Source: Brevundimonas aurantiaca
Lineage (GTDB): Bacteria; Pseudomonadota; Alphaproteobacteria; Caulobacterales; Caulobacteraceae
Reading direction: 5' to 3'
DNA: 64,000 nt
Assembly: GCF_014199955.1 (NCBI RefSeq)
Contig: NZ_JACHOQ010000003.1
Span: 310,001 to 374,000 of the forward strand
Shown here: one piece after another, positions 15,827 to 60,970 of the stretch
Position numbering within the stretch: position 1 is the stretch's first letter
Layout: every line of letters starts with the position of its first letter
The notes under the pieces: model-generated
The model's database searches: none
Seen by the model: the letters and a program-made list of their open reading frames with translations, nothing else
Told to the model about the DNA's origin: nothing
Made by a program: the position numbers and the translations under genes

Positions 15827-16870
<1,044 letters not shown>

Positions 16871-16897
16871 TCAGGCGTCTCCTGGGAGGATGGAGGC

Positions 16898-16993
16898 GCG
16901 GGGTTCAGCCGGATCGACCGCCCCGCGCATCGGCGGGGCTTGGGATCGGGGTTCGGCGCTTCAGACCTCGCGCACACCCGAAACCGCCCCGCC
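16898..16993 (-). promoter_or_regulatory. asd leader: mutually exclusive RNA pairings (attenuator-like)
   Basis: Four segments of the asd leader transcript can pair in overlapping ways. Segment 1 GGCGGGGC (16986-16993, inside the leader ORF, codons 13-15) is the exact reverse complement of segment 2 GCCCCGCC (16932-16939). Segment 2 also pairs for 7 bp with segment 3 GCGGGGC (16920-16926), with a 6-nt loop. Segment 3 can pair for 6 bp with segment 4 CCCCGC (16898-16903), just ahead of the asd ribosome site. This is the logic of ribosome-mediated attenuation. No U-run follows the last stem, so Rho-dependent or translational control is more likely than intrinsic termination. The pairings are seen; the regulation is inferred. 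Confidence 0.5.
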
Positions 16994-17029
16994 GAAGCCG
17001 GTGGTTTTCAGGGTAATCGCTTTGGTCAT
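16961..17029 (-). CDS. Putative leader peptide of asd (22 residues)
   Basis: A short ORF upstream of asd on the same strand: ATG at 17029, TGA at 16961-16963. It begins MTKAITLKTT and ends GVREV. Four of 22 residues are threonine (positions 2, 6, 9, 10, all ACC), two are lysine (3, 8) and one is isoleucine (5). All three are end products of the pathway that asd feeds. A promoter-like sequence ends about 20 bp before the ATG. No Shine-Dalgarno sequence is visible, so the start would have to work without one. It could also be chance in a GC-rich gap, but the residue bias, promoter and downstream pairings agree with one another. Confidence 0.55.
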   Translation of the reverse strand: MTKAITLKTTGFGGAVSGVREV

Positions 17030-17049
17030 GGAGGCGGTCACGGCCAAGC

Positions 17050-17078
17050 TCTCTAGGGCCGAAACTGCGATGTGTAAA
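17050..17078 (-). promoter_or_regulatory. Putative housekeeping promoter for asd and its leader
   Basis: Read on the minus strand, TTTACAC (17078-17072), a 14-bp spacer and CCTAGAGA (17057-17050) resemble the Caulobacter sigma-73 pattern TTGaCgS, 10-14 bp, GCtANAWC. The predicted start of transcription is near 17043, about 14 nt before the leader ORF. It sits directly after the stop of the EamA transporter gene, so asd would have its own promoter. Elements are imperfect and the call rests on pattern alone. Confidence 0.4.
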
Positions 17079-17080
17079 CC

Positions 17081-18019
17081 TCAGACGGGCGGGGCGGTCG
17101 TCTGCAACAGGGCCTGGCGGCGGCGGACCCGTTCACGCCAAGCCGTATAGAGGCCGCTGGCGGCGATCAGGGCGGCGCCGGCCAAGGTGTCGGCGGTCGG
17201 GGTGGTCTTCATCAGCCAAGCGCCGAAGGCGACCGCGCCGAGGATCTGCAGATAGTCGAACGGGGCTACGACGGCGACGGGCGCCTTTTGCAGGGAGGCG
17301 GTCATCAACAGCTGGGCGACGCCGCCCGCCACGCCCGACCCGGCCAGGAGGGCGAAGGTCGTCAGGGCGTGCATCCGGCCGACGAAGGGCAGAAGCAGGG
17401 CGCCGACGATGGACGAGCAGACGAAGAACCAGAAGACGATCGCCGCCACATGTTCGGTGTCGCGCAGCTGCCGCAGGGTGATCGTGACCGCCGCCGTCAG
17501 GAGGGCGGCGGCCAGGCCGAAGCCGACGCCGGCCAAGGGCAAGGGGGTTGAGCCCGCTCCGGAAACCAGAGACAGGGGGCGGGTGACGATCAGCACGCCG
17601 ATGAAGCCGACCGCCACCGCCGCCCAGCGCCGGGGGCCGACCGCCTCCTTCAGAACTAGGAAGGACAGGATGGTGGCGAAGATCGGGGCGGTGAAGCTGA
17701 TGGTCGTGGCCTCCGCCAGCGGCAGAAGCGTCAGGGTCTGGAAGACGCACAGAATGGAGGCGACGCCCAGGGCGCTGCGGCCCAGATGCGCCATGGGGCG
17801 GCGCGTGGCCAGGCCCGCCAGTCCGCCCGGCTGGGTCAGCACCCAGATCAACACCACCGGCAGGCCGAAGAAGGCGCGGTAGAACAGCATCTCCGGCGCG
17901 GTGACCCCGTCCAGGGAGGCCAGTTTCAGAACCGCCGCCATGATGGAAAAGGCGCCCGCTGCGGCGATCCGAAGGGCGATGCCCCTCGCAATGTCTTCGC
18001 TTCCGGTCGTCTTGCTCAT
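17081..18019 (-). CDS. DMT-family transporter with two EamA domains
   Basis: A 312-residue inner-membrane protein with about ten hydrophobic segments arranged as two EamA repeats. The first repeat starts IALRIAAAGAFSIMAAVLKL and contains EMLFYRAFFGLPVVLI. PFDYLQILGAVAFGAWLM lies in the second. The family exports small metabolites, often amino acids, but the substrate cannot be read here. I chose the ATG at 18019 because AGGAG lies just upstream; the longer frame from 18088 adds 23 residues of non-membrane sequence. It precedes asd on the same strand; an amino-acid exporter next to an aspartate-pathway gene would make sense but is speculative. Confidence 0.85.
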   Translation of the reverse strand: MSKTTGSEDIARGIALRIAAAGAFSIMAAVLKLASLDGVTAPEMLFYRAFFGLPVVLIWVLTQPGGLAGLATRRPMAHLGRSALGVASILCVFQTLTLLPLAEATTISFTAPIFATILSFLVLKEAVGPRRWAAVAVGFIGVLIVTRPLSLVSGAGSTPLPLAGVGFGLAAALLTAAVTITLRQLRDTEHVAAIVFWFFVCSSIVGALLLPFVGRMHALTTFALLAGSGVAGGVAQLLMTASLQKAPVAVVAPFDYLQILGAVAFGAWLMKTTPTADTLAGAALIAASGLYTAWRERVRRRQALLQTTAPPV

Positions 18020-18153
18020 GCCGCTCCTGTCGCACGAACCCATAGGCCTTCGCGTCGCCGCCGCCCACCCCGGCGGAGCGATTTCCATCCGGCCGCGTTA
18101 AGCCTGCGGATCGGCAAGCTTCGCTGCAACATCGACAGGGTTGGAGGCGCTCT

Positions 18154-60893: not shown

Positions 60894-60970
60894 GCACCCG
60901 TAGCTCAGCTGGATAGAGCACCAGACTACGAATCTGGGGGTCAGGAGTTCGAATCTCTTCGGGTGCGCCA
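60894..60970 (+). tRNA. tRNA-Arg (anticodon ACG)
   Basis: A full cloverleaf can be drawn. The acceptor stem GCACCCG (60894-60900) pairs with CGGGTGC (60960-60966). The D-arm is AGCTCAGCTGGATAGAGC, the anticodon stem CCAGA/TCTGG encloses CTACGAA with anticodon ACG at 60928-60930, and GGAGTTCGAATCTCT forms the T-arm with TTCGAAT. Discriminator G and an encoded CCA end the gene at 60970. It reads the CGN Arg codons after A34 is changed to inosine. It is the only tRNA in the window. Confidence 0.97.

Follow-up and report, generated by a model that had tools for sequence, protein, structure and literature searches.

A probable leader-peptide attenuator sensing threonine and lysine upstream of asd in Brevundimonas aurantiaca

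The enzyme encoded by asd, aspartate-semialdehyde dehydrogenase, stands at a step common to the synthesis of lysine, threonine, methionine, isoleucine, and the cell-wall precursor diaminopimelate. In the stretch of B. aurantiaca DNA analyzed here (64,000 nucleotides; hereafter, the window), asd occupies positions 15827..16870 of the minus strand, and the sequence in front of it raises the question of whether the gene is controlled by its own leader RNA and, if so, which amino acids are sensed and how expression is changed. An earlier note on this DNA had proposed attenuation by amino acids of the threonine pathway. Comparison with homologous loci supports this as the best reading, given a conserved open reading frame (ORF), conserved codons, and stems kept by compensatory changes. 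We regard leader-peptide attenuation of asd as very likely, and the fuller statement, that of an attenuator sensing Thr/Lys with translation as its likeliest output, may be held with good rather than high confidence.

The gene, its promoter, and the leader ORF

By its family matches, the product of the gene is a genuine aspartate-semialdehyde dehydrogenase: it matches NCBIfam NF011456 with 482 bits (cutoff 223) and TIGR01296 with 419 bits (cutoff 324), and contains the Pfam domains PF01118 and PF02774. Its same-strand upstream neighbor, a gene for an EamA-type transporter (17081-18088, minus strand), ends just before the promoter. The sigma-73-like promoter that had been noted at 17078-17050 is indeed present on the minus strand, as the -35 element TTTACA (17073..17078) and the -10-like element CCTAGAGA (17050..17057), the latter being conserved in orthologs. 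A strict scan using the E. coli-type consensus yielded no promoter before asd. Elsewhere in the window there are a manganese riboswitch (yybP-ykoY, RF00080; 53388-53534, minus strand, 53.4 bits) and a tRNA gene (60894-60967, plus strand, 66.5 bits).

The small ORF described in the earlier note at 17029-16961, MTKAITLKTTGFGGAVSGVREV followed by a stop codon, is present, with Thr at its positions 2, 6, 9, and 10, Lys at 3 and 8, and Ile at 5, exactly as stated, but its proposed start, the ATG at 17029, is probably not the true one, as conservation within the genus favors the GTG at 17041. Codon 1 at 17041 is GTG in all 22 distinct sequences (from 26 genus members), while codon 5, at 17029, is ATG in only 11 of the 22. 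The leader ORF very probably comprises 26 codons on the minus strand (16961..17041), running from GTG 17041 to the TGA at 16963-16961 and encoding VTASMTKAITLKTTGFGGAVSGVREV. Homologous leader ORFs were found in Caulobacter, Asticcacaulis, Hyphomonas, Novosphingobium, and others; before type-A asd (the type found in the window, see below), in these four genera as well as in Sphingosinicella and others, the encoded peptide has the form xTKxITxKTTRxGGA...R, followed by the stop. Shortly before the leader stop, within the last 24 nt (16984-16961 in the window), there is a TGCG motif, seen in 54 of 64 type-A asd leaders, 34 of 41 leaders of other asd, and 12 of 17 thrS leaders.

Of 143 non-redundant leaders, 111 have a TT[TG]A[CT] box that begins 35-38 nt ahead of the start codon of the leader, and in the window the distance from the -35 box to GTG 17041 is 37 nt. 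With a normal promoter, this spacing would place the transcript start at or next to the GTG. Together with the invariance of the start codon, it makes leaderless translation of the leader quite probable, which would also account for the lack of a Shine-Dalgarno sequence before the ORF, correctly pointed out in the earlier note. Leaderless translation has been reported as common in Caulobacter (PMC4117421).

The candidate control codons, recognized by genus conservation and codon usage, are codons 6-14 (17000..17026, minus strand): ACC AAA GCG ATT ACC CTG AAA ACC ACC, encoding T K A I T L K T T. All 22 distinct genus sequences agree at codons 10, 12, 13, and 14 (Thr, Lys, Thr, Thr), and their codon 9 encodes only Ile or Met, both of which are made via asd. 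In the type-A leaders, Lys is encoded by AAA in 101 of 148 cases and Ile by ATT in 60 of 88, compared to 35 of 453 and 61 of 608, respectively, in the asd genes themselves, these counts being taken from sequences that are not independent. Such minor codons could sharpen the sensitivity of the leader; alternatively, the A/T-rich codons may just keep the region unpaired. Thr makes up 28% and Lys 13% of the residues in the leaders, compared to 7.6% and 2.8%, respectively, for small ORFs, an enrichment that partly reflects the choice of candidates by their Thr/Lys content; the leader sets collected protein-first, that is, at asd loci fetched by protein similarity, are freer of this bias. The Lys content is 13-14% in the asd leaders and 2.9% in the leaders of thrS, encoding threonyl-tRNA synthetase, while Thr is high in both. 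The leaders are enriched in codons of the respective pathway: Thr, Lys, Ile, and Met before asd, and almost exclusively Thr before thrS. This match between codons and genes is the best clue to the sensed amino acids, and it is quite likely that the leader senses Thr/Lys.

Alternative helices and their covariation

The leader RNA contains six segments, all on the minus strand, that can pair in alternative ways. The four segments distinguished in the earlier note hold and correspond to segments 2-5 here; their number does not, as segments 1 and 6 have to be added. Segment 1 (16996..17005) lies inside codons 13-16 and pairs with segment 2 (GGCGGGGC, 16986..16993), which can pair with segment 3 instead (GCCCCGCC, 16932..16939). 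Segment 3, in turn, has segment 4 (GCGCGGGGC, 16920..16928) as its other partner, segment 4 can also pair with segment 5 (CCCCGCGCCUCC, 16892..16903), and segment 5 with segment 6 (16875..16883), which contains the asd Shine-Dalgarno (AGGAGACGC). All three helices described previously are retained under shifted names: GGCGGGGC/GCCCCGCC (8 bp, formerly 1:2) is 2:3, GCCCCGC/GCGGGGC (7 bp, formerly 2:3) is 3:4, and GCGCGGGG/CCCCGCGC (formerly 3:4) is 4:5. In the window, 1:2 forms a local hairpin of -10.8 kcal/mol, 3:4 has an energy of -15.0 kcal/mol, and 4:5, with 8 bp, forms a local hairpin of -24.0 kcal/mol; GCGC is common to helices 4:5 and 5:6.

Pairs were counted on 70 distinct homologs as the fraction of cells with standard pairs, with slid partners as the control. 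The helices of the OFF state (1:2, 3:4, and 5:6) have 89.8% standard pairs, and those of the ON state (2:3 and 4:5) 86.1%, compared to 40-60% with slid partners. Doubly changed pairs (11 of 20 in the OFF helices and 7 of 18 in the ON helices) also exceed the slid controls in both states. Since only 1:2, 3:4, and 5:6 had guided the alignment, the count for 2:3 and 4:5 is the less biased one. Among individual helices, 1:2 is kept in 91.1% of cells, with double changes at three of five pairs; 2:3 is paired in 81.5% (five of ten), 4:5 in 91.8%, and 5:6 in 89.9% (five of seven), and in 3:4 both G-C to A-U and C-G to U-A changes are compensated. For 2:3 and 4:5 together, doubly changed pairs outnumber those in shuffles by only a modest margin (42 of 500 shuffles attain the observed number), and pair types are no more numerous than in shuffles; the doubly changed cells, the covariation score, and the slid control are all clear. 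The shuffle-based statistics are inflated by the relatedness of the sequences. Hyphomonas has GGGAC in place of GGGGC in segments 2 and 4, and its segments 3 and 5 have changed to match. A loss of one G from segment 4 (GCGCGG-GCGG) in one genus member (L004), where segment 3 is unchanged, shortens both 3:4 and 4:5.

In these alignments, the paired leader segments covary, the helices are mutually exclusive and compensated, and segment 1 overlaps the control codons. Related genomes keep the ORF, its Thr/Lys/Ile(Met) codons, and every stem, with compensatory changes; it was a lack of such conservation that the earlier note had named as telling against its reading.

A scheme of regulation may be outlined as follows. 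Transcription would start at or next to GTG 17041, and the 26-codon leader would be read as a leaderless ORF. When charged tRNA-Thr or tRNA-Lys (or tRNA-Ile/Met) is short, the ribosome would stall around codons 9-13, covering segment 1; segment 2 would then pair with segment 3 as the latter emerges, and segment 4 with segment 5. The hairpin over the asd Shine-Dalgarno would thereby drop from the full 5:6 hairpin of the window (seven pairs, -8.2 kcal/mol) to the part of it compatible with 4:5 (four pairs, -2.9 kcal/mol), and asd would be translated (ON). When amino acids are plentiful, the ribosome would move over segment 2 while segments 3 and 4 are being made, 3:4 would form, and in the resulting combination of 1:2, 3:4, and 5:6 segment 5 would be free for segment 6, masking the Shine-Dalgarno (OFF). 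The effect would thus be on translation rather than on transcription. As to geometry, a ribosome whose A site is at one of codons 10-12 would be expected to cover all or part of segment 1 and to leave segment 2 free, so that the positions fit. Against the model, a ribosome at the leader stop codon is no longer over segment 2.

Distribution among asd types and before thrS

The covariance model R1 was built from 35 leaders, and its match to the window leader (E 3.7e-34 within the genome) is far above chance, as are the pair counts, although it concerns a member of its own training set. Strong matches to R1 were found in 26 of 131 genus genomes. The genome containing the window has two asd genes, one of type A, in the window, and one of type B, outside it (G000:C7:86814-87800, upstream region L141), the latter without a leader. 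Type-B genes, about 50-51% identical to type A, are present in nearly all genus genomes. Type A occurs in only a minority of them: a complete gene was located in 11 of 61 genus genomes, and the leader is directly upstream in all 11. Among 30 further type-A asd loci in Caulobacterales, fetched by protein similarity, 24 have the leader; at the remaining six (L115, L117, L120, and L131-L133) none was recognized, the switch having either disappeared from these loci or never existed there. Several of these six genes are situated directly behind another reading frame. No leader was found before type-B asd, either at the ten loci of the protein-first set or, using R1, in 29 upstream regions. As far as these comparisons go, the leader and its hairpins are conserved upstream of most type-A asd orthologs in Caulobacterales and several other alphaproteobacteria, and they are linked to type A. 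This suggests a division of labor between the regulated type-A and the unregulated type-B asd.

R1 detected additional leaders across Alphaproteobacteria, some upstream of other asd types and some upstream of thrS; the labels thrS and asdB are based on protein similarity. Three matches (L172, L174, and L176) proved false, with no leader and no matching downstream gene. Several alphaproteobacterial groups have Thr-rich leader ORFs and terminator-like hairpins before thrS (L163, L165, L169, L170, L187-L190, L219-L225, L253, and L254), probably constituting a thrS attenuator with a layout related to that of the asd leader. A search of the window genome with the thrS-type leader peptide produced one weak match (E 1.54), with no Thr-rich leader there.

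Output, rival explanations, and known systems

The absence of a U-run after the hairpins had been seen as a weak point, and the window sequence after 3:4, GGTCGATCC, bears it out. No U-run follows 3:4 in Caulobacteraceae leaders, and the window leader lacks an intrinsic terminator of the thrL/trpL type, that is, a GC-rich hairpin with a U-run. This points to a translational (or Rho-dependent) output. Moreover, 5:6 is a conserved helix over the Shine-Dalgarno of the regulated gene. In every leader-bearing set, the Shine-Dalgarno is masked more strongly than in shuffles (mean z 1.6-1.8), compared to a mean z of -0.28 in seven type-A asd at loci with no recognized leader; similarly, the mean cost of opening it is 6.9 kcal/mol with the leader and 2.3 kcal/mol in seven type-A loci without a recognized one. 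When segment 1 is blocked, nearly all Caulobacterales leaders are predicted to fold into an ensemble of 2:3 and 4:5; when segment 2 is blocked instead, 3:4 predominates, joined by 5:6 in many Caulobacter types. In many Caulobacter-type leaders, opening the asd Shine-Dalgarno costs about 1-3 kcal/mol in the first of these states and 4.5-9 kcal/mol in the second. For the window leader, the equilibrium cost is the same in both (4.6 vs. 4.7 kcal/mol), since masking of the Shine-Dalgarno by CUCC/GGAG or UCCU/AGGA is still available. Equilibrium folding therefore failed as a proof of the switch in the window, with the Shine-Dalgarno partly masked in both states, and worked only in other genera. The unconstrained minimum of the free window RNA is the ON fold (-77.9 vs. 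-67.8 for OFF), which means that the OFF state would have to be kinetic, a matter of timing. On balance, we lean toward Shine-Dalgarno masking as the output in the window, to which the window folding energies lend slight support.

The main rival to a translational output retains the same sensor and assigns it a transcriptional output, with either a U-poor terminator at 3:4 or Rho acting in the untranslated C-rich stretch before asd unless 2:3 forms. In related lineages, AT-rich ones among them, U-runs do follow 3:4, both before asd (L123, L124, L130, L167, L171, and L175) and in thrS leaders, hence the wider family includes ordinary transcriptional attenuators; an automatic hairpin finder overlooked 3:4 in many asdB and thrS loci, and a looser one was used instead. 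The energies of the window Shine-Dalgarno, which do not separate the two states, also leave room for such an output. However, it fits poorly with the missing U-run in the window and in Caulobacteraceae, and with the conservation of 4:5 in exactly this clade (mean z over shuffles 2.18 in the type-A set, where 84% of asd leaders have z>1, vs. about 1.0 in the other asd and thrS sets), and we consider it unlikely, if worth keeping in mind.

Much less probable is a functional peptide as the product of the small ORF, or an ORF that only assists asd through translational coupling, with incidental hairpins in either case. While the C-terminal GGAVSGVR is conserved within the genus and most leaders carry the TGCG motif before the stop, the conservation of codons 17-22 extends to third positions, which an RNA constraint would predict, the tail is different in distant leaders, and the helices are backed by compensatory changes. 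A metabolite-binding riboswitch, e.g., of the lysine or SAM type, might be expected from the known control of asd by lysine riboswitches in other bacteria, yet it is less probable still: no Rfam family matches the asd leader at threshold, with only chance-level matches below it, and what is conserved is a reading frame and simple complementary strands with no aptamer-like core. The search covered Rfam Thr_leader and other Rfam leader families, none of which matched above the gathering threshold. The least credible explanation is a chance ORF combined with chance pairing; a GC-rich region pairs easily, but conservation over several orders, covariation, and absence before paralogs already contradict it.

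In the thrL and trpL attenuators, stalling of the ribosome on a scarce amino acid decides the fold. Like these two, ilvL/ilvB, and Rfam Thr_leader, the asd leader has a short ORF with control codons of the pathway, and it shares with the thrL/trpL class mutually exclusive hairpins in which stalling favors an antiterminator-like pairing. Unlike that class, the window leader has no U-run terminator, and segments 5 and 6 extend to the Shine-Dalgarno; moreover, the asd leader targets a single gene, asd, combines Thr and Lys with Ile/Met codons, and is probably leaderless. Judged by its sequence, it would act like the thrL/trpL class but departs from it in the U-run and matches no Rfam family. The proposed mechanism also resembles that of erm-type leaders, in which a stalled ribosome re-pairs the RNA and frees a masked ribosome-binding site, although here stalling would come from uncharged tRNA, not from a drug.

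Among alphaproteobacterial leader peptides, that of Sinorhizobium meliloti trpL (rnTrpL/peTrpL) is leaderless, its mRNA beginning with AUG, and is translated in Ribo-seq data; it differs from the asd leader in sensing Trp and controlling trpE (PMC10117765). The same source reports that SEP5 of S. meliloti, a small ORF containing six Thr and three Lys codons, is translated. It lies in the 5' UTR of what the authors name aspartate dehydrogenase, possibly aspartate-semialdehyde dehydrogenase, and they suggest that it serves as a leader peptide. In the portion of that source available to us, SEP5 is reported as conserved only in Sinorhizobium and is described without hairpins, mechanism, or a wider family (PMC10117765). 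In Caulobacter crescentus, a member of the same order, the ilvBN attenuator and a trpS leader ORF have been seen by ribosome profiling; they involve other amino acids and genes, and the available part of the report mentions no asd leader (PMC4117421). Apart from the brief SEP5 suggestion, our search of openly readable papers found no published alphaproteobacterial asd attenuator, and an earlier description may exist elsewhere.

The chances seem evenly balanced that a single Thr/Lys leader has acquired two outputs in evolution: a terminator, before asd and thrS in many alphaproteobacteria, and a six-segment relay to the asd Shine-Dalgarno in Caulobacterales and their allies, acting on a leaderless mRNA before type-A asd only and leaving the second asd free. 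This Thr/Lys leader family was not found in the Rfam release searched. If the proposed reading is true, a multi-amino-acid RNA switch would explain the tuning of asd without a dedicated regulator in a large alphaproteobacterial group, to which the Caulobacter relatives used for studies of the cell cycle and leaderless translation belong. The family would then provide a test case for an attenuator whose output has shifted from transcriptional to translational with the sensor unchanged.
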